DNA of 64,000 nucleotides from Candidatus Undinarchaeales archaeon. GTDB lineage: Archaea > SpSt-1190 > JASMDC01. The stretch is from contig JASMDC010000004.1 of the NCBI GenBank assembly GCA_030753015.1, forward strand, positions 84,046 to 148,045, in the 5' to 3' direction. The notes under the pieces were generated by a model that searched no databases, was not told the origin of the DNA, and worked only from the letters and a program-made list of their open reading frames with translations. Positions 8,171-50,115 of this stretch are shown piece after piece; the first letter of the stretch is position 1, and each line of letters starts with the position of its first letter. Position numbers and translations under genes: made by a program.

Positions 8171-8186
8171 GATAATCACCTTCCTC

Positions 8187-9212: not shown

Positions 9213-9213
9213 G

Positions 9214-29430: not shown

Positions 29431-29431
29431 G

Positions 29432-33283: not shown

Positions 33284-33500
33284 GCCGGGCGTTCGGGACG
33301 CTAGACGGCTATCGCAACAGTGCCAGAAGCCGCTCCTCCGCGCCGTAGAGCCATCCCTGGAAGGAAGGTCGTCCCCACGTAACGGTTCAAGATGATCAGC
33401 TCCCTAGAGAAGATGAGGTCGCCCAGCACGAGGAACAGCAGTCCGGAGACCAGCGAAGTGGAATGGAGAAAGGCCGAGTCAGACGGGAACCGAAGGAAGT
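33284..33500. other. Spacer with a possible membrane-protein remnant on the minus strand
   Basis: From 33301 the minus strand is open for about 65 codons, reading LVSGLLFLVLGDLIFSREL and GTTFLPGMALRRGG, which resembles one or two membrane helices. The open frame has no start of its own after the plus-strand promoter at 33501, and I recognise no family. It may be a truncated gene or chance. Nothing else is seen here. Confidence 0.3.
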
Positions 33501-33518
33501 TTTTATAACAATTGTTAT
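33501..33518 (+). promoter_or_regulatory. TATA box fused to palindrome ATAACAATTGTTAT
   Basis: TTTTATA (33501-33507) runs into the 14-bp perfect palindrome ATAACAATTGTTAT (33505-33518). The same core, TAACAATTGTTA, sits in the same place against the TATA box of the UbiA-fusion gene at 50251. A repressor that covers the TATA box is the simplest reading. The next gene starts about 110 bases downstream. Confidence 0.55.
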
Positions 33519-33627
33519 GTTCGCTTTGCCATGGACACGTGTGGACACCACGAACATGTCCCGGCCGGAACGACACCGGTCACGAGCAGAGGGGGCACAC
33601 CCCCCGCCCTTCCCTGAGATAAGGACC

Positions 33628-35184
33628 ATGGAAACCATATCGCGTACCGTTGCCCTGACCCTGCTCATCTGTTTTGTCCAAGCAGCGAGCCTGTCGCCAA
33701 CACCTGTCCCTACCATGACTGCCGTACCGACCTCGGCGGGCATTGAAGTAGAATGGTGCGGACGCTACACCCGCATCTGCGGGCCGTGGCCAGCCGACGC
33801 CGAGAAGGGGTGCGGGTCGTTCTGGGAGAAATCCCCGACGGGCAGCGAAGGGGACACCCGTGGAGCGACGAAGGTCTGCTACAACACCCACCTCACCTTT
33901 GCAGAGGTGGAGGGGCCGGGCAGCGACGAGCGGACCATGCACTGCGGTCACGCCCGCGGGGAGCCGCCGTGCGTCGATCCGGAATGGTGCGGACGCTACA
34001 CACGCATCTGCGGGCCGTGGCCAGCCGACGCCGAGAAGGGGTGCAGGTCGTTCTGGGAGGGAGCACCGACGGGCGGCGAAGGGGACACCAGTGGAGCGAC
34101 GAAGGTCTGCTACAACGCCCACCTCACCTTTGCAGAGGTGGAGGAGCCGGGCAGCGACGAGCGGGCCATGCACTGCGGTCACGCCCGTGGGGAGCCGCCG
34201 TGCGTCGAACCGGATGAGGTGGAGGGCGAGGTCACCCCCGTGCCGGTGGATGCCGTCGAGCTAGAGGAGTCCAGAGCAGCGACCACCGGCCCCGAGGTCA
34301 CCGCTCCACCGGCGCCGCCGTCCCCCACGCCCTCACCAAGCCCCGCACCCGAGCTCCTGTTCGGAGTCATCCCCAAGGCCAGGGAGGGGATGATCGCCTT
34401 CGCCAAGGAGTACTGGGAGATCTTGGCCGGCGCCATCGGCTCCCTGGGTGTCGTCGCCTACTACCTCCACGTCCTCAAGCGCAAGACTCTGGGCGAGGAG
34501 GACGTGGTTGTCGAGCGGGGGAAGACGCTGGATGGGAACGCTGTCAAGGTGGCTATCACGGTCAGGAACAACTCCACCTTCAAGATCACCGATATCAAGG
34601 TCACCATCGACCACCCCCCCGCCTTCAAGGTCCAGGGCGGCTCCCCCACCGTGGAGCTGGGTAACATCAGGGCCGGCGAGTTCCAGAGCTCCGTCTTCCA
34701 CCTCGTCCCCACCAGGAGCGTGAAGGGTTCGGTGACCGGCTCCATCACCTACGAGAACAACAAGGGCAGGCCCAAGGTCGTTCCCATCGAGCCCATTGAT
34801 CTGGGCTCGGTGTCCCCCGCCCTTGAGCAGGTGCGGCTCTCCCACGAGGAGTTCGCTCAAAGGGTCCAATCCCTCATACAGGACAGCAAGACCGTGACCA
34901 TCCGAACCGACCCCGCCACGGTCTTTGGCAGGATCAAGGAGCGGTTCTCCGCCATCCACACCGTGTATGAGGTGGTGGACCCCGAGCGGACGACGTTCCT
35001 CGGCGAGTATGCGGGCCAGAACGCCTACAGCAAGGCATTCATCGGCGCATGGATCAATGTCGTCGGGGGCGCTGCGGAAGGCCAGGTCGAGCTCATCGTG
35101 TACGGCGAGGAGGAGGCGAGTGTCACGGGCCTCCTGAGCGAGCTCGTGGAGCTCATCGAGACTAAGGAGAGCTGGGTGGCGTAG
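33628..35184 (+). CDS. Exported membrane protein with two tandem Cys-rich domains (unrecognised)
   Basis: A 518-residue protein from the ATG at 33628, which follows GAGATAAGG and opens a signal peptide (TVALTLLICFVQAAS); the open frame extends 55 codons upstream through the promoter. Residues about 42-195 hold two 77-residue repeats with Cys in WCGRYTRICGPWP, AEKGCG, KVCYN, MHCGH and PPCV. A Pro/Ala/Glu-rich linker (to about 245) and one membrane helix (AGAIGSLGVVAYYLHVL, about 270) follow, then a cytoplasmic part with an Ig-like NEW/CARDB-type fold (VKVAITVRNNSTF) and a C-terminal alpha/beta domain. I do not recognise the family. The operator suggests control together with the UbiA-fusion gene. 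Confidence 0.7.
   Translation: METISRTVALTLLICFVQAASLSPTPVPTMTAVPTSAGIEVEWCGRYTRICGPWPADAEKGCGSFWEKSPTGSEGDTRGATKVCYNTHLTFAEVEGPGSDERTMHCGHARGEPPCVDPEWCGRYTRICGPWPADAEKGCRSFWEGAPTGGEGDTSGATKVCYNAHLTFAEVEEPGSDERAMHCGHARGEPPCVEPDEVEGEVTPVPVDAVELEESRAATTGPEVTAPPAPPSPTPSPSPAPELLFGVIPKAREGMIAFAKEYWEILAGAIGSLGVVAYYLHVLKRKTLGEEDVVVERGKTLDGNAVKVAITVRNNSTFKITDIKVTIDHPPAFKVQGGSPTVELGNIRAGEFQSSVFHLVPTRSVKGSVTGSITYENNKGRPKVVPIEPIDLGSVSPALEQVRLSHEEFAQRVQSLIQDSKTVTIRTDPATVFGRIKERFSAIHTVYEVVDPERTTFLGEYAGQNAYSKAFIGAWINVVGGAAEGQVELIVYGEEEASVTGLLSELVELIETKESWVA
33751..34212 (+). repeat. 231-bp tandem duplication inside the Cys-rich protein gene
   Basis: Two copies (33751-33981 and 33982-34212) differ by only a few bases, mostly in the middle. 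The repeat is 77 codons and keeps the frame. The high DNA identity points to a recent duplication or ongoing gene conversion. Confidence 0.9.
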
Positions 35185-35274: not shown

Positions 35275-35880
35275 CTATGCTTCGTCGCTTTCTCCCAGCA
35301 ACGTGACGATGTCCTTCCTGATGCCCTCGGGCTCCCACTTGTTCATAAGGTACATCTTCCTCACGTTGTTGTCCCGGTCAATGAGAAGGGCGATCATGGA
35401 ATGGCGGAAGGTCTCGTCATCCTGCCTCTCCGCGATGATCTCGTACTCGTCGAGGATCTTTTCTATGGCTTCTTCGTCCCCACCGAGGAAGTGCCAGTTA
35501 CTGAAGTCCGCGCCGTACAGCTCCCCGTACTTCTTGAGCATACCGAGGGTGTCGCGCTCGGGATCGAACGAGACGAGAATAAGCACGGTCCTTCCACCGA
35601 GCTCCTCCCCCAGGGATTCCTGGAGCCTCCTGAAGTTCTTGGTGGTCCTCGGACACATGTTCGGCATCTCGCAGCTCGTGTAGATGAAGCTCATCACCTT
35701 CACCTTTCCAAGGAGCTGGTCCGAGGATATCGTCTCATTGTCCTGGTTCAGAAGCTCGAAATCGGGAGCCTTTTTGATGATGTGTAGAACTTTCTTCTCA
35801 GGTGCTGCTCTATAGGAGATTATAAATATACTCCCTAATACGATTATCCCTATTATTATGGCTATTATCTTCGATTCCAT
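35275..35880 (-). CDS. Sco/SenC-type copper chaperone-like protein
   Basis: A 201-residue thioredoxin-fold protein with an N-terminal membrane anchor (IIAIIIGIIVLGSIFIISY) and the Sco pattern APDFELLNQDNETIS, YTSCEMPNMCP, SFDPERDTL and FRHSMIALLIDRD. The His of the copper site is present. The two Cys are separated by five residues, not the usual three, which is unusual and may change copper binding. The start ATG shares a base with the upstream stop (TAATG). The nearby CuA proteins at 40077 and 40465 are the likely copper clients. Confidence 0.85.
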   Translation of the reverse strand: MESKIIAIIIGIIVLGSIFIISYRAAPEKKVLHIIKKAPDFELLNQDNETISSDQLLGKVKVMSFIYTSCEMPNMCPRTTKNFRRLQESLGEELGGRTVLILVSFDPERDTLGMLKKYGELYGADFSNWHFLGGDEEAIEKILDEYEIIAERQDDETFRHSMIALLIDRDNNVRKMYLMNKWEPEGIRKDIVTLLGESDEA

Positions 35881-36722
35881 TATTTCACCTCGAGCTTGAC
35901 CCAGTCCGATATGTACTTCCTGCCTCCACGGTCGCCCTTTGCACCGTTCCACACGGCGAACGCAAAATAGCTTATCTCACCGGATACGAACGTAGCATCG
36001 GGCTCACTGTGGGCGGAATCGAGCCTCCGTTTGAACACCACGTGCCACCTCCCGTTGTCGTACAGGCCCCGACCCTGCACCGTCTGGTTCTCCTTCACCA
36101 CAGAGGTGCCGATCCCCGTCGCCACGAGGTCACGCACCGCCGAATTGAGCGCAGGTCGTGTGACGACGAGCACCTCCTCCTCCTCGAACGGATAATGATA
36201 GTCGGCATAGGGCGTCGACCCCTCTGGAACCTCGTTCGACCAGAACTGACCATCCAGGTCGGCCTTCCAGTGCCAGATACCGACCATGTCCTTGAAGCCC
36301 ATTATGATCGAGGAGGGCTTTGTCCTGTTCTTCAGGGGGAACATGATCGCGCAGGCGTCAGAGAACGTGTTCGTGCCAGACAGGATGTCCTCGGTTTCGT
36401 CATCCCAGCTCACATAGAGATAGATGTCCTTCCCGTTGTGGAAGGCCTTCACGGCGATGGGGGGGAGCGAACCTTTTGCGGGCCAGGGGATCACCGTGAG
36501 CTGGTAGACGAGCTCGACCTCCGTTGGTGGCTGCGTGTCCCACACCTCCAGGGAGATGCCCGTGGACAGATCTATGTCCCTGTCGACGAAGGGCGCTTCT
36601 GTAACCTCCGGTTCCCCCACCCCCACCGGGCCCTCCACCGACCGGATGAAGCCATAGGTGACGAGCACCAGGAAGGAGAGCACCAATGTGATCGATACGA
36701 TCACGACGGTCTTCGGTCTCAT
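35880..36722 (-). CDS. Ethylbenzene dehydrogenase-type heme b subunit (first copy)
   Basis: A 280-residue exported protein with an N-terminal membrane anchor (VIVSITLVLSFLVLVTYGF) and the EB_dh fold of gamma subunits of type II molybdoenzymes. Such subunits bind one heme b through a Met and a Lys outside the cytoplasm. Typical segments are VKAFHNGKDIYLYVSWDDET, TFSDACAIMFPL, GIWHWKADLDGQFW and FAVWNGAKGDRGGRK. It begins 94 bases after the ahbD gene and is followed at once by the Sco gene. The paralogue at 42315 has the same layout, so the oxidoreductase may have two heme relays or alternative partners. Confidence 0.85.
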   Translation of the reverse strand: MRPKTVVIVSITLVLSFLVLVTYGFIRSVEGPVGVGEPEVTEAPFVDRDIDLSTGISLEVWDTQPPTEVELVYQLTVIPWPAKGSLPPIAVKAFHNGKDIYLYVSWDDETEDILSGTNTFSDACAIMFPLKNRTKPSSIIMGFKDMVGIWHWKADLDGQFWSNEVPEGSTPYADYHYPFEEEEVLVVTRPALNSAVRDLVATGIGTSVVKENQTVQGRGLYDNGRWHVVFKRRLDSAHSEPDATFVSGEISYFAFAVWNGAKGDRGGRKYISDWVKLEVK

Positions 36723-36816: not shown

Positions 36817-37905
36817 TCATCGATGACCCTCCCCCGAAGGATGGTACACGCAGTACGGCTCCTCGCCCAGGAGGTTCCCCGAGGTGCCCAGCGCTCTGGC
36901 CCTGCACCCCCCGCAGACCGACCGGTACTCGCAGACGCCGCATCTGCCCTCTAGCAGGTCGTGGTCCCTGAGCGACCGGAAGAGGGGGGAGCCCTGGTAT
37001 ATCCTCTGGAAGGACTCCTGCCGGACGTCCCCCGCCTTCACCGGCAGGAATCCGCACCCGTACACCTCGCCCGTGCTGGAGATGAAGCAGAAGCCGTTGC
37101 CGGCCATGCATCCCCTACCACCCGAGCGTGAGCCCCGTCCACCGCCGTGGGGCCGGCCCGCAGGTCCATCCGGCGGCTTGCCGTCGTCCTCCCCCTCCAT
37201 CTGGGCGATGACCCTCGTGTAGTGCGGGGCGCAGGTCATCTTGATAGGGAGCGGCAGAGAACGGTTCCATCCATATACTCTCCTCAGCGTCCGCTCGTAC
37301 TCCTCGGGAGATATCTCCATCCTCACCTTGGCCCTTCCCGTGGGCACCAGCATGAACACGTCCCACGCCTTGGCACCGAGCCTCTCGGCAAGGTCCCGGA
37401 TGTTGGGAAGGTCCCCCAGGTTGTGCTGGGTGACGGTCGTGTTGATCTGGAAGGGCATCCCGCCGTCCTTGAACACCTTGAGGGCCGATGCGGCCATCTC
37501 GAACGAACCCGCCACCTTGCGGAAGCCGTCATGCACCTCGGGATTCGAACCGTCGATGCTTATGGAGACCATCCTCACCCCGCTCTCCTTCATCCTCCGA
37601 ACGGTCCCGGGCACTATTTTGCTCCCGCTCGGCGCCATGACAACCCTGAAACCCCGCTCGTCGGCGCGTGCCGCTATGTCGAAGATGTCCTTCCTGAGAA
37701 GGGGATCACCGCCCGACAGGATGAAGACGGGTTTGGCGAACCCGGCGATGTCATCGATAAGCCTGAAGGTCTCCTCGGTGGTGAGCTGGTGTGGATCGGG
37801 CTCGGTCTGCGCATTGGCCCTGCAGTGGACGCACGCGAACCTGCAGGCCCTGGTGGACTCCCAAGCAATGACCCGGGGCGAAGGGTGATCGTCCGACACC
37901 CTCAT
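36817..37905 (-). CDS. ahbD: Radical SAM heme synthase AhbD-like
   Basis: The last enzyme of the siroheme-dependent heme route, oxidative decarboxylation of iron-coproporphyrin to heme b. The 362-residue protein starts at ATG 37905, overlapping the ahbC stop (ATGA). The radical SAM motif is CRFACVHC near residue 21 and SGGDPLL near 68. The C-terminal auxiliary-cluster (SPASM-like) Cys are CMAGNGFC, YGCGF and CGVCEYRSVCGGC. A Gly/Arg-rich insert (residues about 242-262) is unusual. Assignment as AhbD rather than a NirJ-type paralogue rests on gene order A-B-C-D. Confidence 0.82.
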   Translation of the reverse strand: MRVSDDHPSPRVIAWESTRACRFACVHCRANAQTEPDPHQLTTEETFRLIDDIAGFAKPVFILSGGDPLLRKDIFDIAARADERGFRVVMAPSGSKIVPGTVRRMKESGVRMVSISIDGSNPEVHDGFRKVAGSFEMAASALKVFKDGGMPFQINTTVTQHNLGDLPNIRDLAERLGAKAWDVFMLVPTGRAKVRMEISPEEYERTLRRVYGWNRSLPLPIKMTCAPHYTRVIAQMEGEDDGKPPDGPAGRPHGGGRGSRSGGRGCMAGNGFCFISSTGEVYGCGFLPVKAGDVRQESFQRIYQGSPLFRSLRDHDLLEGRCGVCEYRSVCGGCRARALGTSGNLLGEEPYCVYHPSGEGHR

Positions 37906-38972
37906 ACAACCTCCATCCCGATCTCCTCGTCGGTGAGGTAGCATGCCGGATCGGGTGCCCAGAGGTCGTGGTGGGCGGCCTCCGCCCGCACCCTGAGGTT
38001 CCCGTTGCACATGTCGAGGTAGCTGCATCCAGCACACCTCCCCGTGAGGAGCGTTTTACGGTTCCTGAGGTCCTTCAGCAGCGGTTGGTCCGGATCCGAC
38101 CAGATCTCGCTGAACCTGCGCTCCAGGATGCTCCCCACCGAGTGGTGGTGCCAGAACTGGTCGGCATGCACGAATCCGTTGAAGTCGACGCATCCTATGC
38201 CCGAGCCGGAGCTGTTCCCGCCGTTCATCCGGAAGAGCTCCCGGGCCTCCTGCGCCCTCTCGGGATCCTGTTCGAGCAGCTTCCGATAGACATAGGGGGC
38301 ATCGCAGTGGTTGTCCACGGTCAGGACCTCCACGTCCCTCCCGCTCCTGTCCAGTGCCTCGACCCTCTCTATCATGTGGTCGATGAAACCGCGCCTCTCG
38401 GCGTGCGACAGGTCGTCGTGGATCAGGTCTGCCGCTCTCCCCGAGTAGACCAGGTGGTAGAAGCACACCCGCGGTATCCCCTCCTCCTCAACAAGGTCGA
38501 ACATCCGGTAGGCGTCCGGAAGGTTGTGCCTCGTGAGTGTGAACCTCAGACCGGTCCTGAGCCCGGCCGAGATGCAGTTCCGGATCCCCTGCACAGCGGA
38601 AGCATAGGCGCCGTTCAGTCCCCTGAAGCGGTCGTTCGTCCCCTCCATCCCGTCCAGGCTTATCCCGATGTAGGAGAATCCCGCTCTCTTCAGTCTCCCG
38701 GCATTCTCCCTGGTGATGAGCGTCCCGTTGGTGGACAGGACAGTCCTCATCCCGAGATCCTTCGCCCTGCCTGCCAGGTCGAACAGGTCTTCCCTCATGA
38801 GGGGCTCACCTCCCGAGAATATGAGGACGGGCACGCCGAACTGAGCAAGATCGTCGATGAGGTCCTTCCCCTGCTCCGTGGTGAGCTCGTCCGGGCGGAT
38901 CCCGCCCTCGGCCCGGGCATAGCAGTGCACGCAGCTCAGGTTGCATCTTTGCGTGGTGTTCCAGACCACCAC
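37902..38972 (-). CDS. ahbC: Radical SAM AhbC-like (12,18-didecarboxysiroheme deacetylase)
   Basis: Removes the acetate side chains of didecarboxysiroheme. The 356-residue protein has VVWNTTQRCNLSCVHCYAR at the very N-terminus, FSGGEPLM near 52, LSTNGTLIT near 78 and the C-terminal Cys set GIGCVDFNG, GRCAGCSYLDMCNGN. The pattern is that of the NirJ/AhbC group. No ATG fits; the first candidate is GTG at 38972, and in-frame codons RRGVHRRP just upstream look protein-like, so a non-standard start a few codons earlier is possible behind GGAGGGG. Confidence 0.85.
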   Translation of the reverse strand: MVVWNTTQRCNLSCVHCYARAEGGIRPDELTTEQGKDLIDDLAQFGVPVLIFSGGEPLMREDLFDLAGRAKDLGMRTVLSTNGTLITRENAGRLKRAGFSYIGISLDGMEGTNDRFRGLNGAYASAVQGIRNCISAGLRTGLRFTLTRHNLPDAYRMFDLVEEEGIPRVCFYHLVYSGRAADLIHDDLSHAERRGFIDHMIERVEALDRSGRDVEVLTVDNHCDAPYVYRKLLEQDPERAQEARELFRMNGGNSSGSGIGCVDFNGFVHADQFWHHHSVGSILERRFSEIWSDPDQPLLKDLRNRKTLLTGRCAGCSYLDMCNGNLRVRAEAAHHDLWAPDPACYLTDEEIGMEVV

Positions 38973-39043: not shown

Positions 39044-39574
39044 TTATATTGATAATGTCCGATCAACTTCCCCTGTGACGGCTGCTATCGCCCGTTCCAC
39101 GATGCGGCCGTTGCTCGTCTTCTTGAACTGCCTCGTGCTGAAGAGGATGAGGTAGTTCGCGATCCCGGTGGAGTCGCTCATCTCCTGCACGAGCCCCTCG
39201 ACCGTTGCACGATCACGGCCGTGGAGTACGGTGAACAGGTTGTACGTCCATCGGCCGGGCACCGTCCCGCGGAGGATGCAGTGTGTCACCCGCTCGTTTC
39301 CCGCGAACGCCGTCCCCACGTCCTCGATCCGGCTCTGCGGCACCTCCCAGGCTACCAGGGCGTTGGCAACGATCCCCACCCTTCTGTGGTTTATCGATGC
39401 ACCGAAGCGGCGTATCACGCCATTCTCCTTCAGCCTCTTCAGCCTCGTCACGACCTCGTCCTCGCTCAGGCCTGTGACCCTGGCTATGTCGCGGAAGGGC
39501 TCTGGCACGAGCGGTATCCCGTCCTGGGTGGCTCGCAGTAGGGCGACATCCCTCCCATCCAACTGAGGCTCCAT
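39044..39574 (-). CDS. ahbB: Siroheme decarboxylase subunit (AhbB-type, Lrp/AsnC fold)
   Basis: A 176-residue Lrp-fold protein that, with its partner, decarboxylates siroheme rather than regulating genes. It has an N-terminal helix-turn-helix-like region (LSEDEVVTRLKRLKENGVIRRFG) and the catalytic-type core INHRRVGIVANALVAWEVP, VTHCILRG, WTYNLFTVLHG. The start lies two bases after the ahbA stop. The A/B order is assumed from other archaeal clusters; the two names could be swapped. Confidence 0.82.
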   Translation of the reverse strand: MEPQLDGRDVALLRATQDGIPLVPEPFRDIARVTGLSEDEVVTRLKRLKENGVIRRFGASINHRRVGIVANALVAWEVPQSRIEDVGTAFAGNERVTHCILRGTVPGRWTYNLFTVLHGRDRATVEGLVQEMSDSTGIANYLILFSTRQFKKTSNGRIVERAIAAVTGEVDRTLSI

Positions 39575-39576
39575 GA

Positions 39577-40068
39577 CTACCGCCCGCCCATGTTGAAGTT
39601 CACCCTTACCTTGAAGAGGCGTTCTGTGGGGAGGTTCAGGACATCGCCTTCAGAGATCCCTGTCCTCATGTGTATCTCGGAGAGGAGGTGGGTCAGGCTC
39701 TCTCGGTCAGGTGCGGTGAGCGTGAACCAGACGTTGTATATGTGGTCCCTCTCGTAGTTGTGTGAGACCTCATCGTAGCCGTTGATGATCCCCACGATCT
39801 CGGAGAGCTTCCTGGAGGGCACCTTCATCGCCACCAAGGTCGCAGCCCTCAGCCCCACCTTCCGTGCGCTTATCACGGGGCCCAGCTTTCTCACAATCCC
39901 CTCCTCGCTCAGCCGTCTCAGCCGCGCCAGCACCTCCTCGCCGCTCAGGCCAAGCCCCCTGCCGATCTCCGCCCACGGCTCCTCTGTCAGGGGTATCTCC
40001 CTCTGTACCGCATCCAGAAGCTGCCTGTCCGGGCCATCAAGCCCTTCATCCACATCTCTTTCGGGCAT
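39577..40068 (-). CDS. ahbA: Siroheme decarboxylase subunit (AhbA-type, Lrp/AsnC fold)
   Basis: A 163-residue partner of AhbB. It reads GIVRKLGPVISARKVGLRA, then VSHNYERDHIYNVWFTLTA, the His/Tyr-rich strand typical of siroheme decarboxylases (and nitrite reductase NirDLGH). The start ATG at 40068 is eight bases after the CuA-protein stop behind GGAGTAGG; the longer frame overlaps that gene and is not used. Placing heme synthesis within the operon supports local heme b supply to the EB_dh subunits. Confidence 0.83.
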   Translation of the reverse strand: MPERDVDEGLDGPDRQLLDAVQREIPLTEEPWAEIGRGLGLSGEEVLARLRRLSEEGIVRKLGPVISARKVGLRAATLVAMKVPSRKLSEIVGIINGYDEVSHNYERDHIYNVWFTLTAPDRESLTHLLSEIHMRTGISEGDVLNLPTERLFKVRVNFNMGGR

Positions 40069-40076
40069 GCAAGGAC

Positions 40077-40460
40077 CTACTCCACCGTCAGCTCTCCGGT
40101 CATGTCCATGTGATGGTTGGAGCACCACACCGTGCACATGAAGGGGAAGGTCCCCTTCCTGTCGGGCGTGAACTCGATCACCTTCACGTGCCCGGCCTTG
40201 ATCTCGGGGGCCGCGACATCGAACGCCGGCAGGGCGAACCCGTGGCTCACGGTGTCGACGTTCCTGATGCGCATGGTGACCTTCTCCCCCACAGGGACCG
40301 TGACGTGCCTCGGTTGCCAGTTTCCCCTCTCGGGTGCCCTGGCGATGAGGTCCACTGTGTATGCGCTGCTCCGGTAGCTCTCGGCCCCGAGTATAGCTGC
40401 GACGACGCCCACCGTGGAGATGAGCACGATGATGACTGCAATCATTTCTCGTATTTCCAT
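40077..40460 (-). CDS. Membrane-anchored CuA-domain protein
   Basis: A 127-residue protein with an N-terminal helix (MIAVIIVLISTVGVVAAIL) and a cupredoxin domain. The full CuA ligand set is present: His in DTVSHGFALP near 73 and the loop CTVWCSNHHMDM near 109 (Cys-3-Cys-3-His-2-Met). In oxidases and N2O reductase this dinuclear copper site receives electrons from outside the membrane. No oxidase subunit I or N2O reductase gene is adjacent, so here it probably shuttles electrons within the molybdoenzyme pathway. It begins four bases after the preceding stop behind GGGTGAGG. Confidence 0.87.
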   Translation of the reverse strand: MEIREMIAVIIVLISTVGVVAAILGAESYRSSAYTVDLIARAPERGNWQPRHVTVPVGEKVTMRIRNVDTVSHGFALPAFDVAAPEIKAGHVKVIEFTPDRKGTFPFMCTVWCSNHHMDMTGELTVE

Positions 40461-40464
40461 GTCC

Positions 40465-42318
40465 TCACCCCAGGAACAGCTTCAGGAACCCCAACGTCGC
40501 CAGCGTCAGGAAGCAGAGCATGGGAAGCCAGCCACGCTGTGCCTCTCCGGGTTCAGGATAGGTCTGCTTGGACAGCCGGTAGCCGAACGCGATACAGAAC
40601 AGCTGGAACACGATCAGGACGGCTCCCTGCAGGTACCCCATCACATCCGTGAACACAGGTGTCCAGGGGAAGTTCGCCGTGCCCAACAGGTTCCATCCCC
40701 AGGCGAAGGGATCGGAGATCACGTGCAGGAGATAGCTCCCGTTCGGGAGAAGTATGCCGAGGCTGAACGCTATCCACACGCCAAGACCCATGGGGACGAG
40801 GGTGTAGGAGAAGTTCACGAACACCCTCTTCAGCGACACCTCCCTGTTCCCGCTCGCAAGCTTCGAAAGATAGGCGAACACGCCGAACACGGCGGGTAGG
40901 GCGATGAGGCTGACCGTCGAGTGGATGGCGATGAACGTCAGGAATCCCGAGTAGGTCGTTGCCCTCATCATGTCCTTGAGCTCGCCGTAGGGACCCTGGT
41001 AGATTATGAAGAAGACCACGGCGATACCCAGCATGATGAAGCCCTTCCACGCCTCGTCAAGCCCCCTCTTCTCCCTCTTGGTCTCCACCAGCAGGTCCAC
41101 ACCGGGAGGCCTCAGGTTGAACGCCATGTTGTCGTGGGGGCAGGTCTTGAAGCACTCGAGGCACATGCCGCAGTAGGTGTTCTTCTTGAAGTCGAAGGGG
41201 GTCAGGAGCCAGGGGCATCCGTGCCCCTCCTCACTTCCCACGAAGCATGTCTTGGGTGTGTGGCCCTTACAGATTTCCGGGTCCTTGCACCGAATCTCGC
41301 TCATGGCGAACTGGGAATAGAGCGCCTGGAACCCGGAGACGGGACACATGTACAGGCAGAAGGACCGCTTCTTGTACACCAGCCCTACGATGAACGAGGC
41401 CAGGATGACGGCTCCCAGGAGGATGAAGCTTGCCAGCGGCTTCACGGTCATGAATCCGGAGAAGAACGTGGTGCCCAGGAACAGGAAGTTCATGACCCAC
41501 ATGTTCTTGAGGCTCTTGGGCCACGGCTTGTTCAGGCCCGATTGCTTCCCCGGCTTGACCTCGATCACCGCTCCCCGGTGGTACCAGTCGGAGAAGAGGG
41601 GGAACGGGCACACCATGCACCACGTCCGGGCGAAGAAGGGTACCAGGATGAACATCAGCATGACCCACCAGAGGATCCATACGAACATCACTCCCACGTT
41701 GTAGTTACCGGCCGAGTACCCCCCCACGAACATGGAGAGGAGGAGGGCGAAGAAGAAGAGGAGGTTGACCAGGATGGCTCCGAGGGGGAACCACCTCGAC
41801 TTGAAGAGCGTCCTTATGGGCTTGAAGCTCGTGAGGTCGAACCGCCAGTCCAGGTCGATGAGCCCGAACAGCTTGTCCTTCGCAGGCTTGTCACCGTTCC
41901 CTTCCCGAGCCATCACAATCAGGCTTCCCAATGCCACGAGCACCGCCAGGGCCGCGTACCCGTTGAACGGCGAGTTGGGCTCGACGTAGAGGTGGCCGAC
42001 CATGTAGGGATGGAACTCCCCGCAGGTCACCGAACACCTGAAGGTGAACCGACCCGGTTTGTCGGCGACGAACGTGATAACACCGTCCTGTCCTGGATGG
42101 GCCTTGGTCTGGACCTCATATCCGTCTAGGAACAGTCCGTGGTGCACGTCCTCGCTCGTCAGGCGGATCGTCACCACGTCACCCTCGTTTACCTTGATGA
42201 CGCCGGGCGTATAGGAGAACGTCTTTCCGCTGACCTCGATGTATCTCTCCTCGGCAACGACAAAAGGCGCGATGAGAAGGCCTACCAGGAGGGCCAGCGC
42301 CAGTACCCTGATCATCAT
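40465..42318 (-). CDS. CuA domain fused to NapH/NosR-like polyferredoxin membrane protein
   Basis: A 617-residue fusion. After a signal peptide (LALALLVGLLIAPFVVA), residues about 20-110 form a cupredoxin with CuA ligands DVHHGLFLDG and CSVTCGEFHPYM. One helix follows, then a NapH/NosR-like membrane part with CMVCPFPL near 245, FCLYMCPVSG near 325 and a ferredoxin motif CGMCLECFKTCPHDN near 400, plus Cys in KDPEICKGHTPKTCF. Several helices follow to the end. The start ATG at 42318 overlaps the upstream stop. The protein could take electrons from quinol inside the membrane and pass them by CuA to the outside. I know of no standard family with this order. Confidence 0.82.
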   Translation of the reverse strand: MMIRVLALALLVGLLIAPFVVAEERYIEVSGKTFSYTPGVIKVNEGDVVTIRLTSEDVHHGLFLDGYEVQTKAHPGQDGVITFVADKPGRFTFRCSVTCGEFHPYMVGHLYVEPNSPFNGYAALAVLVALGSLIVMAREGNGDKPAKDKLFGLIDLDWRFDLTSFKPIRTLFKSRWFPLGAILVNLLFFFALLLSMFVGGYSAGNYNVGVMFVWILWWVMLMFILVPFFARTWCMVCPFPLFSDWYHRGAVIEVKPGKQSGLNKPWPKSLKNMWVMNFLFLGTTFFSGFMTVKPLASFILLGAVILASFIVGLVYKKRSFCLYMCPVSGFQALYSQFAMSEIRCKDPEICKGHTPKTCFVGSEEGHGCPWLLTPFDFKKNTYCGMCLECFKTCPHDNMAFNLRPPGVDLLVETKREKRGLDEAWKGFIMLGIAVVFFIIYQGPYGELKDMMRATTYSGFLTFIAIHSTVSLIALPAVFGVFAYLSKLASGNREVSLKRVFVNFSYTLVPMGLGVWIAFSLGILLPNGSYLLHVISDPFAWGWNLLGTANFPWTPVFTDVMGYLQGAVLIVFQLFCIAFGYRLSKQTYPEPGEAQRGWLPMLCFLTLATLGFLKLFLG

Positions 42319-43160
42319 GTCCCCGCCTCCAAAGAGACGAAGTCGGAAATCGATTTCCTGCCGCCCCTGTCGCCGCTCGCACCGTCCCATACGGCGAACG
42401 CGATGGAGTAGGTCTCCCCGGGAGTGAAGGCGGCGTCCACCTCCGGATCGGAGGCGGTGAGCGAGCGCCTGAACATGACGTGCCAAGTGCCGTCGATCCA
42501 GAAGCCCCTGCCCTCCACCAGGCTCACGTTCTTGCGGGTTAGCGTGGCGATCCCTGTTGCGATTATGTCATTTACGGCAGATACGTGTTCGAGGCCCATG
42601 ACCGTGAGCGTCTCATTCTCCTCGAAGGGATAGTAGTAATCCGCGTACACCCTGGCCCCCGGCCCCTTTCCCGACCAGAACTCCCTGTCCTGGTTGGCCT
42701 TCCATTGCCAGATATTGGAGCTCCCCATGAAGCCCATCATGAGGGTCGAGTTGGGCACGTCCTCGCCCAGAGGGAACATGATGGCGTTAGCGTCGGAGAA
42801 CGTGTTCCCCCCATGGATCTCGTCCAAGGTATCGTCCTTATAGCTCAAATAGAAGTAGATGTCCTTCTTATTGTGGAAGGCCTTCACGGTTACGGACGGC
42901 ACCGAATCCTTCGGCCACGGGAGGACCATCAACTGGTAGAACAGCTTGATCTCCTTGGAATCGATGCCCTCCCACTCGTCCAACGACGTCGCCCCCCTGA
43001 AATCGATGTCCTTGTCGATAAAGGGAGCCTTGAGGACCACCCGTTCATACTCGTAGTCGGCAGGGATGCCCCATGCATGTTGCATGCCGTAACGGACCAG
43101 GCCCAGGAACAATGCAATCAAGACGATAGACAATACTATGACGGTGTTCTTCTTCATCAT
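42315..43160 (-). CDS. Ethylbenzene dehydrogenase-type heme b subunit (second copy)
   Basis: A 281-residue exported gamma-type subunit with an N-terminal anchor (IVLSIVLIALFLGLVRYGM) and EB_dh motifs VKAFHNKKDIYFYLSYKDD, TFSDANAIMFPL, NIWQWKANQDREFW and FAVWDGASGDRGGRK. It is paralogous to the protein at 35880, with matching blocks along the whole length. It lies between the chaperone and the CuA-NapH fusion, overlapping both by four bases (ATGA). It probably carries the heme b that links the NarGH-like catalytic pair to the copper protein. Confidence 0.86.
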   Translation of the reverse strand: MMKKNTVIVLSIVLIALFLGLVRYGMQHAWGIPADYEYERVVLKAPFIDKDIDFRGATSLDEWEGIDSKEIKLFYQLMVLPWPKDSVPSVTVKAFHNKKDIYFYLSYKDDTLDEIHGGNTFSDANAIMFPLGEDVPNSTLMMGFMGSSNIWQWKANQDREFWSGKGPGARVYADYYYPFEENETLTVMGLEHVSAVNDIIATGIATLTRKNVSLVEGRGFWIDGTWHVMFRRSLTASDPEVDAAFTPGETYSIAFAVWDGASGDRGGRKSISDFVSLEAGT

Positions 43161-43717
43161 GCATCCCTCCCGAGGAAGCGTTCATCGGATTCCAGGAACT
43201 CGAGCAGTTCCTGTGCGGTCTCCCGATAGAAACCGTTCTCGGACTTGGCGAGGATCGCTTCCGCTATCTTCGTTGCCGCGGGATGTACGTGCCTGCGGAA
43301 GAACTTCCTCTCCGCATCCTGGCATATCCGGGCCTTCTCGCGGGCGTCCTCGGTGTCGCCGTTCTTGAGGGCATGAAGCCTTTTGAAGATGAGATAGTGC
43401 ATGAACTCGAGCTCGCCTGACAGGGAATCCGGTCGGTCCCTGTCCGGCTCAACGCCGAAGGCCCGGTAGAACCCCATGATGTCGGCCAACTCGTTCGACC
43501 GCTGGAACTCGTTCTTCGCAAGGTGCTCCGTCCCGTAGAGCCAGACCTCGCTGGCCCTGAAGAGCCCGTCATATGCCCGCTTCAGCTCGTCCAGTTCCTT
43601 GTTCGAGAACGAACCCTTGAAGAATGAGAGGAATTGATCGTCGGGGTACGAGAACGCAACGGCGAAGCTCTTGTAGGTGAGCATCCGGTCCCTCTCGCCC
43701 CTTTCCTTCTTGCTCAT
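43157..43717 (-). CDS. TorD-family chaperone of the NarG-like enzyme
   Basis: A 186-residue helical protein that matures the type II molybdoenzyme, like DdhD, EbdD or NarJ. The start ATG at 43717 stands six bases after GGAGGTG; earlier in-frame GTG and ATG codons at 43735 and 43723 are possible. The family pattern includes SFAVAFSYPDDQFLSFF near 15 and LSGELEFMHYLIFKRLHALK near 98. It is distinct from the chaperone at 4657, so each oxidoreductase operon has its own. Confidence 0.82.
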   Translation of the reverse strand: MSKKERGERDRMLTYKSFAVAFSYPDDQFLSFFKGSFSNKELDELKRAYDGLFRASEVWLYGTEHLAKNEFQRSNELADIMGFYRAFGVEPDRDRPDSLSGELEFMHYLIFKRLHALKNGDTEDAREKARICQDAERKFFRRHVHPAATKIAEAILAKSENGFYRETAQELLEFLESDERFLGRDA

Positions 43718-43739
43718 GTCCATCACCTCCGTCACAGGC

Positions 43740-44879
43740 TCAGCTGATGCTGATCCTATGGACATCCCGTTGTCCGTCATAGACGTCCCTCACGACGATC
43801 GGCTCCTTCAACGGCACCTTGATGATCTCCTTCCCGTCCGCGTCATACCCATAACAGGAGCCGCTGTCCAGGTCCCCCTCGACCTTGAACGAGTGGATGA
43901 TATTGTCGGTGGCGCCGAAGAGCATCAGGAGACCGATGAGGTTCATGTCCTCGGTGGCCTTCTTGTAGCGCTCGACCGCCTCATTTGCACCGGGACCGAA
44001 GAGCTGTCGGTTGAAATCCTCCGGTACATGGATGGGGGGGATGTAGTACACGTTAGGCTCGGTGCCGAACTGCGGATAGAGGGGACGCGCGATCTTTGCG
44101 ATGTGTACGAGGTAGTCGATAGGGTTGTCCTCTCTCGGAGCGTCGGGAGGGCTGATGAAACCGAACATACGAATCTTGCCAATGCAGTTCTGGACGCACT
44201 GGGTCTGTTTGTCGTTCTCGATAGCGGGGTAGCAGGAGATACATTTCTCCGAGTTCCCCGTGTGGGACCGGAACATTGATTTCTTGTAGGGACACGCACG
44301 CACGCATTCCTGGTAGCCACGACACCTCTTCTGGTCGATGAGCACAATGCCGTCGTCCCGTTTGTAGATGGCCTTTCGCGGGCAGGCGGCCACACATGCA
44401 GGATATGTGCAATGGTTGCATATCCGCGCCAGGTAGAACATCCACCGATTGTGGGGCACCTTGATGAACTCGCCCTGCTTGACCGCCTCGTTCACCTCGT
44501 CCTCGCCGATGTTCGGATAGGTGTAGTCCTCCTCGTCGGGGATAAAGCCGAGTATCTCCTCGCCGAAGGACGGGCTCTCGAAGATCGTGTCGCCAACGTA
44601 CCTGTCCCCCCTCCATTTCTGTGTCCCGAGCTTCTCCAGGAGCCTCACATCCCAGCCAAGCGGATAGAACCCCCAAGGCTTGGTTTCCACGTTGTTCCAG
44701 AACATGAACTCCTGGCCCTTTCCGGAGGTCCATGCGTTCTTGCAGGCAATGGTGCACGTCTGGCAGGCGATGCACTTGTTCGTGTCGAAGATCCAGGCCA
44801 CTTGCTTCTCGTGACGCTTCGATGGATACTTGTAGTCCATCTCCCTCCCGATCTGCCAGTTATAGGCCTTGTACGTCAT
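43740..44879 (-). CDS. narH: NarH-like iron-sulfur subunit of a type II molybdoenzyme
   Basis: A 379-residue electron-transfer subunit with four clusters. Cys groups: [15 protein letters not shown] (near 36), [14 protein letters not shown] (near 157), [15 protein letters not shown] (near 188) and CISCYP with CVQNC (near 215). In the third group Tyr stands where a fourth Cys would be, the sign of a 3Fe-4S cluster as in NarH, DdhB and EbdB. The start ATG at 44879 overlaps the alpha-subunit stop. The length and order match nitrate, selenate, chlorate or hydrocarbon-oxidising relatives. Nitrate reductase is the simplest guess. Confidence 0.87.
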
Positions 44880-47800
44880 TGGACGAACCCTCCCTTGATG
44901 AACCTCTTCATCACGTCGCTCTCGTACATCGGCCTCAGGCCCAGGCGGGCGGGTCTCCACAACTTGTTCCCCTCGTAACCCCCGTCCTCGGCTTTAGTGA
45001 ATTTCACGAAGCTGTCCCGGGGAGCCCCGTTGGGACAGTTCACGTCCGCCGCGAATCCCTTTCCTATCACGGGGCCGATGGTGTTCTTCCTAACGAGGCT
45101 GTCCGTCATGAGCGTGGGCCTCAGCCATCCCCTCGTGCAGCTCTGGTGTGAGCCGAACCGGTACATGGCCTGGTACCCGGTCCTCGGATTCCTGGCGAGG
45201 CCATCGGCGTTCTCCAGGTGTCCCTGGACCGAGCCATAGCTTGCGCCGTACATGTGAAACCACGAACGAGAGATCGTCGGGGGGATGCCAAGATAATATC
45301 TGGCGCGCAGCATCAGCCGCGAGAGCCTGTACTCCTCGCTTCCCTCCTTCTTCTCTCCACGATACGGTCGGTCCTCGGGATCGGCATCGACCCAGATATA
45401 ATCACCGTCCTCGATACCCAGGGCCTTGGCATCCTGAGGGTTGATATCGACGTACCCTTCACCCACCCAGGGCATGCGCTTGTCCCTTCGGTACGGATCA
45501 CCGAATGGACCGAAAAACATGGCGATGACGTCGATGTCCACGGGCATGGTATGTGAGGAATGCCGGTATTTAGGGGTGATGTAGACGTGTGAGAAGCCTT
45601 CCTTCTTCAGGGGATGGGACGACACTAAAAGCTCGTTCGGCGTCATGACGACGTTCCTCACCTGACGTACCTCGCCGGAGCGGTCGTCCTTCGCAATCCC
45701 GTACGCCTCCGGTCCCGTGGGTCTGAGGGCAGGGTGTGGTTTTGCAACGATCACGTTCGGCTCGTACATTGTCCCGTCCACTGTCTCCCGGTGAACGGGC
45801 AGGTTCTCCCCGTACTCGATGAACTCGTCCTCGTCCCGGTAGAACTCGAGCCTTCCCGTCTTGGAGTACCACTGCTTGTCCTCGTTGGACTGCTCCCAAC
45901 CGATTATCTTGGGGTAGGTGCGGCTCATCATGAGGGCGGGTATCCCCTGAGCGGAATTCTTCGCCAGTTCGGCGAAATCATACCCCTTCGTCATGGAGGT
46001 TGCGTCCATGATCCTCTGGATGTAGACGCCGACCTTCCCCTCGTTGACGAACTTCCAGTAATCGTTGAACCGTTCGTCCCCCAGGATCCTTGCCAGGGCA
46101 GCCGATACACCGGAATACACCTCGATGTCGCCCCTCGTATCGTGTATCCGCTCGAGCGGTGACGGGGTGAAGATCTGCAGGAAGGGATTGGTCACCGAGG
46201 CGGTGGCGTCCGGATGCTTGAACTCGCCCCAGGAGTCCACGGGATAGACCACGTCCGCATACTCGCAGGACGCCGTCCACCACCACTCGCTCACGGCCAT
46301 CATCTCGATCTTTGGAAGGACATTCACCACCATGTCGTAATGCCCCTTCAGGTTGCCGAAGATGGAGTTGGCGTTGCAGAACATGAGCGACTTGGTGGGG
46401 GTGGGGATGTGGGACGCGCCGGTGAACATCTTGTTCCCCACCTTCAGCGGATGGTCCCCGTGGTTGTAGTAATGCGCCGATTCGAACTTGAAGTACCGTT
46501 TCAGCCTCGAGCTCTTCTCCTCATCGAGCTCGATGTCGAACGGGTTCTCCGCGATGTACTTGCCCATGCCGTCGAAGTACGCTGCTCGGTAGTTCCCCGC
46601 AAAGCTACCGACGTTTCCGCCGTGCGTCCCCACGTTCTTGGTGAGGGCGCACACCAGAAAGATTGCCCGATCCTTCAGGTCTGCGTTGAAGAACTGGTTG
46701 GGGCCCATCCCAACGGCGATGAGGGTCTTTCCCTTGTTCGCAGCGATGTCGCGTGCAAGGCTCGTGATCGCCTCCTTGGGCGCCCACGTGAGCCTTGAGA
46801 CAGTTTCGGGATCGAAGTTCTCCGTGAGGTACTCCGATATGAGGCTGAACACGGTCCTGACCTCGACCTTCGTGTCGCCGATGTCGATCTCGCGCGCGGC
46901 ATCCAGGTCGGGTGAGATCCCTTTCTCCTTGAAGTACTTGCCGACCTCGTCACGGGTCACAGCCGCGAGTCCATCCTTGCTCTCGTCCCACACGACGAAG
47001 TTGCCCCACTCATCGAGCAGCGTCTCGGATATGACCTGCTTCCCATCCGCCTTTATCGGGGCGGGAGCGCTCTCGCCCTTCTTGAGGACGATGGTCTCCC
47101 TTCTCTCGGTGGGAGGGGCAAAGCCCGGGAGCACGTCCTCGGCACGAACCAGCTTGAGGGTGTCCATCCTCACCAGGAGCGGGAGGTCCGTTCTGCTGTT
47201 AACGTACTCCTCGTCGTACAGCCCTTCCTTGATGATCACGTAGGCCAGCCCCAGGGCGAAGACGGGATCGGAGGCGGGCCTGATGATGATCACCTCGTCG
47301 GACTTGGAGGCGACCGACGAGTATTCCACGGTCACGGTAACGACCTTGGAGCCCTTCACCCGGGCCTCGGTGAGCCAGTGGGCGTCGGGCATCTTGGTGG
47401 ATATCCAGTTCATTCCCCAGGGTATGATCAGCTTTGCGTTCTCTGCATCCACGAGGTCGAAATCAACCGTCTGCTGACCCGTCACCATGGGGTGGCCGGG
47501 AGGCAAATCCGTGTGCCAGGTGTAGTTGTCCCATCCCTTCGCCCCAAGTGCGGTCTCCGGGGTCGTCCCCCTGATATGGGTGTCAAGGAGGGCCAGGGAG
47601 TTCGCGAAGCGATACATCCCGAACACGCGTGTGATCCCCAACAACGGCATGCCACCGCGGAACTTGAGCACCTGGGTGCCTGCGCCCTTGGTGGCCTCGA
47701 TCACCTCCGGGTCGTAGAGGAGCTCGCCCGTCCTCTCGTCCGTCTGGATCCCGAGCAACTTCTGACCCGCATCTCCGCTGTAAGTGGTGGCAATGTTGAT

Positions 47801-48349
47801 CATCGACTTGGCGACTATATCGAAGATCTCGTCCCAGGAGACCTTCACGAAGTTCTCCTTGCCCCGATTGAAATACTCCAGCGGCGGTCTACCGTCCTCG
47901 CCCCGGGGGAAGCCCGCCTCGATCCATCTCTTGAAGCCCTCCCTGACCATGGGATACTTGACCCGCCTCGGTCCGTAGATCCTGCGGATCAGCGTCAGGC
48001 CCTTCTGACACAGTCGCGGCTCCCATCGTGGGGATGCGGTGTTGCCGTACAGGTCCTTCGCCTTACTATAGCCGTAGCTGGGTCCGATCCTCGTGATGAC
48101 GCCGTTCTTGACATAGGCCTTGAGGAGGCAGTTGTGGGTGTCATTGGGCGCGCACATGAAGTGGAACGTGGAGTCATGCCTGAACTGGTCCCGGTAGATC
48201 TTCTCCCAGTCCCTCTCCGGATAGTGGTCCAGGGGATTGTCGGTCGTTGTAGAGTACACGAGATTCGAGAGGAGCGGCTTGCTCAACGCAAGCCCGGCAA
48301 GACCGGTCAAGGAAAGCGTCAGGAACTTCCTACGTGGTATCTGTTTCAT
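44876..48349 (-). CDS. narG: NarG-like catalytic subunit, Tat-exported type II DMSO-reductase family
   Basis: A 1157-residue molybdenum subunit with a twin-arginine signal ([15 protein letters not shown]), so it acts outside the membrane as in archaeal pNar enzymes. The likely Asp ligand of molybdenum lies in [16 protein letters not shown] near 291, matching DLPP of NarG, followed by [15 protein letters not shown]. The N-terminal cluster segment reads [22 protein letters not shown] with LCQKG later: the first two Cys are seven residues apart rather than three as in E. coli NarG. The substrate may be nitrate, another oxyanion, or a compound being oxidised. A TATA box at about 48410 and GCAGGGGA before the ATG support the start. 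Confidence 0.85.
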
Positions 48350-48585: not shown

Positions 48586-50115
48586 TCAGTCCATGGCCTG
48601 CTTGAGGCCGAGGAAGATGTTCTTTTGTCTCTCGATATAGAGGTACATGTACGCAACAGAGGCGGCGAACACCAGTCCTAGGATGACCACGTAGGCCGTG
48701 ACCTGCTGTCCGAATCCCTCCCAGGCATAGGCCAGCGTCAGGAGGAGCCCCGTGGCAAGGTGGCTGGTGACGGTCAGGGCGTTGGCCGGCACTAGGTCGA
48801 ACGACTCATCGTAGTGTCTCCTGGCGTGGGCGATGGCCCTGAGCGAGAGCGGGAGCGTGATGAAGGCCAGTAGGGTGGCCTGGGGCAGACGTTCGGCGAT
48901 CACACCGGCCAAGATGACGAGGTGCGCCGACACCATGAGCGCTCCGTACACCACCGACGCCCGTGACCGCCCAAGCCTGACCACCAGAGTCTTCTTGCCC
49001 ACCGCCTTGTCGGCCGCGTAGTCGGGGAACTCGTTTATCCAGAGCACTGCCGTTATGAGGAGCGCCACGGGGAGGCTGGCCAGTACCGGGACCCAGCTCA
49101 GTTGCTGCGTCTGCACGAAGTAGGCGCCCAGGGTCATCAGGACGCCGAAGTTCAACCCGATGAGAAGCTCCCCCACACCCCTGCCCGCCCAGTTGAACGG
49201 ACGCCCGGTGTAGAACATCCCCGAGACGAACCCGAACACACCCAGCGCGAGAACGACCGGACCCCTCGCCCACGTCAGGTAGAGGCCGATCAGGCTGGCG
49301 AGGAAGAAGCTGAGGAGTCCGCCCGTCAGCACCTCGAGAGGGGAAAGCAGGCCCGACTGGATCACTCGGCTCCCACCACTGAAGGGCCTGACGAACTCCG
49401 TGTTCGCCTCGTCGTTGCCGCTCACGTGGTCGAAGTAGTCGTTGACCACGTTGGCGCCGATGTGCAGCAGCACTGCAGCGATCAAGGTCAGGGCGAAATA
49501 CCCCCAGTGGAGCATCCCGGTCCCTTCCCATGCCACGGCCGAGCCGAGCAGGACGGGAACGATACTAGCGGTGAGGAACGGCATCCTGATCTCCATCAGC
49601 CAGCTCCTGGCCTTGGTCCTCAGCTGCTCCCCGTCGCTGACCACCGTCCGGTTCTCCGGGTACTCGAGCACAGTGGGCGGCAGCCCCTGGACGATCTCCT
49701 TGAAGATTCGGAGCTTGACCACCTCCGGCGCCACCTTGATGCAGTCCAGGATACCCTCGTTTCCCGCACCCACCAGGTGCTTGACCACCGGCGATCTCTT
49801 TGCGGTGAGCTCGAGTGCCCTCTGTCGCTCTTTCCGATCCTTCACGATCACGGCCTTGCCGCTGATCTCCACCTCGTGCGAATCGTTGATATCGTCCCCT
49901 CCCTTGTAGACGAGGAGCGATACCGAGGGGTGGTGGGTGATCTGCACGGTCTTGGGATCACCCTTCATGGTGGCCAGATAGAGATTGAGATCATCGTCGG
50001 AGGCGAAGTGCATCATGCGGTTCCTCGTCCCTCCACCGGCCGATGTTGCCACCGCGGCCACGGGTATGCTCTCCAGGACCGACTGGATCTCGGCCTTCGT
50101 GTGTTGCGTTTTCAT
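48586..50115 (-). CDS. Flavin split-barrel domain fused to UbiA/MenA-type prenyltransferase
   Basis: A 509-residue fusion. Residues 1-150 are a pyridoxamine-phosphate-oxidase-like split barrel (IPVAAVATSAGGGTRNRMM, DDLNLYLATMKGDPK, EVEISGKAVIVKD) that probably binds FMN, F420 or heme. Residues about 180-500 are a UbiA prenyltransferase with nine helices and the prenyl-diphosphate motifs NVVNDYFDHVSGND near 230 and NEFPDYAADKAVGKKT near 350. The MenA-like features suggest a menaquinone role, which fits the quinone-linked oxidoreductases. The leader is about 110 bases from a TATA box joined to the TAACAATTGTTA palindrome. Confidence 0.85.
   Translation of the reverse strand: MKTQHTKAEIQSVLESIPVAAVATSAGGGTRNRMMHFASDDDLNLYLATMKGDPKTVQITHHPSVSLLVYKGGDDINDSHEVEISGKAVIVKDRKERQRALELTAKRSPVVKHLVGAGNEGILDCIKVAPEVVKLRIFKEIVQGLPPTVLEYPENRTVVSDGEQLRTKARSWLMEIRMPFLTASIVPVLLGSAVAWEGTGMLHWGYFALTLIAAVLLHIGANVVNDYFDHVSGNDEANTEFVRPFSGGSRVIQSGLLSPLEVLTGGLLSFFLASLIGLYLTWARGPVVLALGVFGFVSGMFYTGRPFNWAGRGVGELLIGLNFGVLMTLGAYFVQTQQLSWVPVLASLPVALLITAVLWINEFPDYAADKAVGKKTLVVRLGRSRASVVYGALMVSAHLVILAGVIAERLPQATLLAFITLPLSLRAIAHARRHYDESFDLVPANALTVTSHLATGLLLTLAYAWEGFGQQVTAYVVILGLVFAASVAYMYLYIERQKNIFLGLKQAMD

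Follow-up and report, generated by a model that had tools for sequence, protein, structure and literature searches.

A CuA domain joined to a NapH/NosR-like membrane protein as a candidate electron-input module for an external NXR-type nitrate reductase in an Undinarchaeales archaeon

Introduction

Enzymes of the nitrite oxidoreductase (NXR) type are located outside the membrane and have an EB_dh heme-b subunit. NosR, a quinol dehydrogenase protein, feeds a CuA enzyme, NosZ. Here we analyzed a 64,000-nucleotide stretch of an archaeal genome (Candidatus Undinarchaeales, assembly GCA_030753015.1, contig JASMDC010000004.1, positions 84,046 to 148,045 of the forward strand) in which a CuA domain is fused to a NapH/NosR-like iron-sulfur membrane protein and is encoded between the genes of a NarG-type enzyme and a second CuA protein (CuA2). 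We consider it reasonably likely that the fusion and CuA2 together form the module by which electrons enter an extracytoplasmic nitrate reductase, one of the NXR/type II dimethyl sulfoxide (DMSO) reductase group, with a path from NapH through CuA and heme b to NarH and NarG. We refer to the whole 64,000-nucleotide stretch as the window, and all positions are window positions unless prefixed with a locus (L0xx).

The closest described gene set is an operon of Methanoperedens that encodes, in this order, NarG, NarH, NarJ, Orf7 (a b-type cytochrome), HCOII, a NapH with five extra helices, and a further HCOII (Arshad 2015, PMC4683180); the same list is repeated elsewhere (PMC5690323, PMC13079737). 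These genes are highly transcribed, and an unusual complex with cytochrome c as the electron donor has been suggested (PMC4683180). In the NXR catalytic subunit NxrA, FS0 is bound by C67, D71, C75, and C115, and N70 is the proposed substrate residue (PMC8387239). NapH mediates electron flow from menaquinol (summarized in PMC9012536). An earlier reading of this DNA, made from the letters and translations (the sequence-only reading), had taken CuA sites to be normally confined to oxidases and N2O reductase. That view is too narrow, as PmoD also forms a CuA site (PMC6189053).

Results

The fusion and CuA2 are part of a tightly spaced gene run that encodes an NXR-type enzyme. The fusion (617 residues, ATG start) and CuA2 (127 residues) are on the minus strand, and their open reading frames, motifs, and neighbors are exactly as the sequence-only reading had placed them. 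The order of the run is NarG-NarH-NarJ-EB_dh-CuA/NapH fusion-CuA2:

44876..48349 (-), NarG/NxrA-like molybdopterin catalytic subunit, 1157 residues, with an RRKF twin-arginine translocation (Tat)-type N-terminus, predicted external (PF00384)
43740..44879 (-), NarH-like iron-sulfur subunit (Fer4_11; TIGR03478, type II DMSO reductase beta, 254 bits)
43157..43780 (-), NarJ/TorD-like chaperone (PF02613, TIGR03482)
42315..43160 (-), EB_dh heme-b subunit, Orf7/NxrC-like, with an N-terminal signal anchor (PF09459, 5.8e-31; TIGR03477)
40465..42318 (-), CuA-NapH fusion: signal peptide, exported CuA domain (approximately residues 22-115), one helix, and a nine-helix NapH/NosR-like iron-sulfur membrane domain
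40077..40460 (-), CuA2, 127 residues: N-terminal membrane anchor and CuA domain

Both CuA domains have the complete set of CuA ligands, an upstream His and the motif C-x3-C-x3-H-x2-M, in agreement with the sequence-only reading. The ligands of the fusion (H60, C95, C99, H103, and M106) were invariant in 19/19 aligned proteins and those of CuA2 (H73, C109, C113, H117, and M120) in all 26 of the 26 aligned; CuA2 of the Nitrospinota loci L015 and L018 has one additional residue between C113 and H117. The invariance of these ligands, and that of the cysteines in the membrane part (see below), was well past chance expectation. In Pfam, CuA2 matched COX2/Cupredoxin_1 and the fusion matched COX2/Cupredoxin_1 plus Fer4_5 (over cut-off). 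The best NCBIfam matches were partial: they were to the CuA ends of NosZ and CoxB and, for the membrane part of the fusion, to NapH/MauN (E 3e-4).

We compared predicted structures with known copper proteins. The model of CuA2 (predicted local distance difference test, pLDDT, 92.7) has a single N-terminal helix and a cupredoxin barrel and matched NosZ CuA domains at 1.1-1.3 Å over ~91 residues (Z ~13). In the model of the fusion (pLDDT 81 and predicted template-modelling score 0.83 for the whole protein), the CuA part also matched CuA domains (Z ~13). A Foldseek search with the whole fusion returned, among the matches listed, the CuA type only, which says little about the membrane part. Nitrosocyanin and other cupredoxins had structural scores equal to those of CuA domains, so the fold alone is no proof of CuA, and it is the ligand set that points to CuA. 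Since this fold also hosts nitrosocyanin and copper carriers, the domains might instead bind copper at a mononuclear site or one of another kind, or function in copper storage or delivery and not in electron transfer. We find this very improbable given that the full five-ligand set is invariant and that the CuA domain is found fused to two redox proteins (see below). Based on the ligands and the models, we infer that both domains are likely to bind copper as CuA sites.

The membrane part of the fusion is a relative of NapH with strictly conserved cysteines. Hydropathy indicated, after the signal peptide, the CuA domain, and one helix, eight segments above threshold and one just below it (~275-293), for a count of nine; together with loop charges, it placed CuA outside and the iron-sulfur cysteines inside. 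Eleven cysteines (C234, C237, C321, C325, C350, C358, C368, C383, C386, C389, and C393) were invariant in 22/22 rows. The CxxCP and ferredoxin motifs recorded in the sequence-only reading are present and can be stated more exactly as C234xxC237P, C321xxxC325P, and a ferredoxin-type CxxCxxCxxxCP (383-394). The match to TIGR02163 (NapH/MauN proper) had 20.2 bits versus a cut-off of 213, indicating a relative of NapH and not NapH itself. No histidine in the membrane part was invariant among the aligned rows, and therefore no membrane heme is expected there.

NarG is predicted from its sequence to be an external enzyme of the NXR/type II DMSO reductase kind. Its best match in the PDB was Kuenenia NxrA (7b04; 906 bits, full length, 4-1156), and E. 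coli NarG scored 132 bits. C66, D70, C74, and C114 of NarG correspond to the FS0 ligands C67, D71, C75, and C115 of NxrA, and N69 corresponds to the substrate-side N70. The RRKF near its start is a Tat-type motif, and the earlier designation as an external NarG-like enzyme held up on this motif and on the NXR type.

This kinship raises the possibility that the system runs in reverse, as a nitrite oxidoreductase, with electrons from nitrite passing through heme b and CuA to a membrane acceptor. NarG is nearest to Kuenenia NxrA among solved structures, and NXR-type enzymes catalyze both directions (PMC8387239). We give this reading little chance. The archaeon's own genome (3.85 Mb, 98.9% complete, 5.0% contamination; absences refer to profile searches of this draft) had no match to COX1 (PF00115) or bd oxidase, and with no oxygen reductase found as an acceptor at the nitrate/nitrite potential, nitrite oxidation would not pay. 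Additionally, COX1 was not found in 15/17 other genomes that bear the cassette, and Methanoperedens, which shares the gene set, sustains itself by reducing nitrate (PMC4683180).

The host genome appears to have neither an oxidase that CuA could serve nor a bc1/cytochrome c route. The genome, which encodes an archaeal aRF1/eRF1-type release factor, had no match to cytochrome c assembly (PF01578) or cytochrome b (PF00033), in addition to the missing COX1 and bd oxidase, and a genome-wide search with PF00116 gave a single match, a gene of this locus. The absence of oxidase subunit I near the locus, noted in the sequence-only reading, thus extended to the whole genome. For N2O reductase, which was also said to be missing nearby, only the CuA ends of NosZ models matched, with no propeller, in a search that did not include NosZ's own model. 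We rejected a role as a subunit of an oxidase or N2O reductase: there was no COX1 in the genome and no NosZ propeller, and CuA is joined to a membrane domain or stands alone. A Rieske/bc route was also rejected, as the Rieske matches were lipoprotein-like or multidomain proteins and no cytochrome b was found.

One of the Rieske matches in this genome (L055:1960-3168, contig C61) is a lipoprotein-like protein with three Rieske domains in tandem and adjoins a DsbD-like membrane protein. Others are found with a thioredoxin fold (L054), with an FGE-sulfatase domain (L057), and in a 1335-residue protein (L056).

Two features of the window make a quinone likely. The first is a MenA-type gene directly upstream of NarG, a possible quinone supply, although it adjoins the cassette without being conserved as part of it:

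48586..50115 (-), MenA-type prenyltransferase with an N-terminal PNPOx domain (TIGR00751, 126 bits versus cut-off 102; UbiA and PNPOx_N)

The second is an NrfD subunit, encoded in a TtrABC-like set (5303-9909) along with a ferredoxin-type subunit and a molybdoenzyme closest to TtrA (588 bits, below cut-off). A related set comes after the cassette in the Omnitrophota loci L011 and L012. The quinol donor of the sequence-only reading is favored by MenA next door and by NrfD, but MenD, MqnA/MqnD, and the complex-I-type NuoH/FpoH/EchB were not found in the genome.

These absences, together with that of cytochrome b, also bear on whether the NapH-like domain might be fed directly by a cytoplasmic donor (ferredoxin or an Hdr complex) through its inward clusters, and not by quinol. 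The clusters are predicted to be on the cytoplasmic side. An HdrA-like gene, judged by eye, adjoins the window just upstream (L058:17346-19046), and an HdrC-like iron-sulfur protein is encoded at 2218-2859, which suggests a soluble heterodisulfide-reductase-type complex. Nonetheless, we consider a direct cytoplasmic donor unlikely: MenA beside NarG and NrfD in the window indicate a quinone, and NapH is known to channel electrons from menaquinol (PMC9012536).

The cassette is present in many phyla. A single scan across 84,980 species genomes yielded 28 loci, with L029 a marginal match; a plasmid-borne cassette was sought and rejected, with no match in the plasmid collection. A close group (~50-72% identity in NapH) comprised Omnitrophota, Hakubella, Planctomycetota (including a Brocadiaceae metagenome-assembled genome, MAG), Chloroflexota, Spirochaetes, Lentisphaerae, Aminicenantes, Nitrospinota, and bacterium HR10. 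The order NarH-NarJ-EB_dh-CuA1-NapH-CuA2, where CuA1 corresponds to the CuA domain of the fusion, was found in 14/16 close loci with enough upstream sequence; NarG was also visible in 13 of those 14, and the remaining one (L003) starts inside NarH. The two others, Chloroflexota L004 (9099-12338) and L014 (2771-6083), keep EB_dh-CuA1-NapH-CuA2 with a methyltransferase-like gene in front and have no NarGH in the stretch examined. The module may thus serve another partner there, and the linkage to NarGH and EB_dh, whose constancy the sequence-only reading had suggested checking, applies to most close relatives but, for NarGH, not to all. A COX1-like fragment in L004 is 8 kb from the partial cassette and was judged by this distance to be probably unrelated to it.

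The CuA1 domain has been joined to two different partners. It is a separate gene in most loci. The CuA1-NapH fusion was found in the window, L009, L015, L016, L027, and probably L018 (cut by a contig end), and a CuA1-EB_dh fusion was found in two Planctomycetota (L017 and L020), with the fusion domains confirmed by Pfam. On a tree of NapH, the NapH fusion needs ~4 changes, at least 2 of them forced by well-supported branches, and the EB_dh fusion needs 1. We therefore rejected the idea that the fusion is an ancient invariant unit. Fusion of CuA1 to either partner suggests that NapH, CuA1, and heme b work together, in the order NapH - CuA1 - heme b.

Other domain combinations and lone CuA proteins were also seen. 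In Nitrospinota, a 775-residue protein (L015:142-2469) has a Cys-free AhpC/TSA-type thioredoxin fold joined to CuA1 and NapH. In small archaeal genomes, lone proteins that appear to be secreted have the full CuA motif (CSVFCGSGHGGM or similar), and no oxidase gene was evident next to them (L062:5531-6052, L063:5367-5789, L065:5507-6073).

Copper is not a general replacement for cytochrome c. Only 2/17 other bearer genomes, the ones with L004 and L019, had a COX1 match, and in most bearers CuA therefore does not serve an oxidase. However, 13 of the 17 have cytochrome c assembly genes. These genes were not found in the genomes of L002, L009, L010 (Hakubella), and L012, which may be incomplete. 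The proposal in the sequence-only reading that copper stands in for c-type cytochromes fits the archaeon's own genome and cannot be extended to the bearers as a whole.

In a distant group (Neomarinimicrobiota, a Bacteroides MAG, and a Myxococcales MAG), CuA1 and NapH are beside a CuA protein with a cytochrome c domain (L022:12238-13185, L024:1270-2208, L026:2845-3795). Near the L022 copy are genes for a Rieske protein and for another protein that has eight CxxCH motifs. The cytochrome c assembly genes of most bearers and the cytochrome c domain of this divergent branch are what would be expected if the HCOII-like proteins and NapH were mainly anchors and the true donor were cytochrome c or another soluble carrier, as in the published Methanoperedens model (PMC4683180, PMC5690323). 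We regard this as rather improbable for the locus in the window: no cytochrome c assembly family was found in the archaeon's genome, and an anchor would have no need of five invariant copper ligands and eleven invariant cysteines.

Genes for cofactor supply follow the module on the same strand. Located 3' of CuA2 are genes for the synthesis of heme b, a second EB_dh protein, and SCO1:

39577..40068 (-), AhbA, siroheme decarboxylase alpha, heme b synthesis (NF040708, 140.6 bits versus cut-off 140)
39044..39574 (-), AhbB, siroheme decarboxylase beta (NF040707, 174.7 bits versus cut-off 125)
37902..38972 (-), AhbC-like radical S-adenosylmethionine (SAM) protein, didecarboxysiroheme deacetylase, whose true start may be upstream (TIGR04546, 529 bits, profile positions 41-390)
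36817..37911 (-), AhbD-like radical SAM protein, heme b synthase (TIGR04545, 417 bits, best family)
35880..36722 (-), second EB_dh heme-b protein (PF09459, 5.6e-29)
35275..35880 (-), SCO1/SenC protein (PF02630, 5.7e-26)

The SCO1/SenC protein is likely the copper chaperone for the CuA sites, and SCO1 homologues also adjoin the cassette in L002, L016, and L027.

Other genes were observed near the operon. A 573-residue protein without a Pfam match (33463-35184) begins with two near-identical Cys-rich repeats (EWCGRYTRICGPWPADAEKGC...) followed by a hydrophobic segment. A hemerythrin with DUF438/DUF2249 (28210-29646), an FprA-like flavodiiron protein (30880-32088), and a second hemerythrin (32228-32797) are likely a nitrosative-stress set, fitting exposure to nitrite and nitric oxide.

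Discussion

We propose that the fusion and CuA2 carry electrons to the external NarG enzyme as follows. A membrane carrier, most likely a menaquinol-type quinol, would be oxidized by the NapH/NosR-like domain, which would pass the electrons to its fused CuA domain outside the membrane. CuA would then reduce the heme b of the EB_dh subunit, from which electrons would move through the iron-sulfur clusters of NarH to the molybdenum in NarG, where nitrate would be reduced to nitrite. CuA2, anchored by its own helix, may provide a further copper relay, which would probably link the two EB_dh proteins to each other or the module to the enzyme. SCO1 would load the copper and AhbA-D would make the heme b. 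In this archaeon, the module probably supplies external nitrate reduction with electrons over copper and without cytochrome c.

Several observations weigh against this proposal. The NapH-like part lacks conserved heme ligands, and so has no expected heme over which electrons could pass to CuA from quinol or from the clusters on the cytoplasmic side. MenD, MqnA/MqnD, and complex-I-type genes are missing from the genome searches, the two Chloroflexota keep the module without NarGH, and enzymes of this type work in both directions. Finally, the authors who described the Methanoperedens operon took cytochrome c as the donor and HCOII and NapH as potential membrane anchors (PMC4683180, PMC5690323).

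A broader interpretation is that many bacterial and archaeal phyla share a respiratory module free of c-type cytochromes, in which CuA centers alone link a molybdenum nitrate reductase to the membrane. In the present archaeon, such a module might even dispense with a canonical quinone pool: its iron-sulfur membrane domain might be fed from the cytoplasm or by a quinone built on salvaged head groups (MenA was found, but not MenD or MqnA/MqnD). We put this forward tentatively and hold it to be doubtful.

Many uncultured microbes of groundwater and vents have external nitrate reductases of the NXR type. If our proposal is correct, a conserved copper path of NapH - CuA - heme b gives these external enzymes a donor, explains nitrate respiration without cytochrome c, and ties nitrate turnover in such habitats to the supply of copper. 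The CuA domain would then be a transferable unit, able to attach to either the membrane side or the enzyme side.

Comparison with known systems

The locus is most like the non-canonical Nar of Methanoperedens, as compared by gene order and content and not by sequence. The two share seven functions and their order, an external NarG, an EB_dh-type b cytochrome, two CuA-type proteins, and a nine-helix NapH. They differ in that CuA1 and NapH are fused here, whereas HCOII and NapH are separate genes there, as are CuA1 and NapH in most relatives. Methanoperedens also has Rieske/cytochrome b and c-type cytochromes, in contrast to the archaeon described here, in which no cytochrome b or cytochrome c assembly was found.

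The enzyme resembles NXR-ABC of Kuenenia and Nitrospira in the full-length alignment of NarG with NxrA, in the cluster and substrate-side residues, and in having an EB_dh heme-b subunit as NxrC (PMC8387239). However, the complex of Kuenenia works with NXR-T, a heme c protein, no CuA-NapH module is described there, and the host here shows no oxygen reductase. The membrane domain is like the quinol dehydrogenase proteins NapGH and NosR in its helices with two CP motifs and its ferredoxin-type clusters, but has five extra helices and an N-terminal CuA domain, with no flavin mononucleotide (FMN) domain or NapG partner seen.

The CuA domains are like those of COX2 and NosZ in ligand set, spacing, and fold. 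Unlike COX2 and NosZ, they come without COX1 or a NosZ propeller and are fused to NapH or EB_dh or are single with one helix. PmoD, a cupredoxin whose gene adjoins those of a different enzyme, is a precedent for CuA in a protein that belongs neither to an oxidase nor to NosZ, although its site is formed by a homodimer with a different ligand set (PMC6189053). In the open-licence literature, from which most subscription papers are absent, our searches turned up no account of the bacterial cassettes, of the fusions, of the copper path, or of any bearer that lacks cytochrome c assembly. The gene set itself was already known from Methanoperedens, and what is new here is the fusion, the spread of the cassette over many phyla, and the electron path that we infer.

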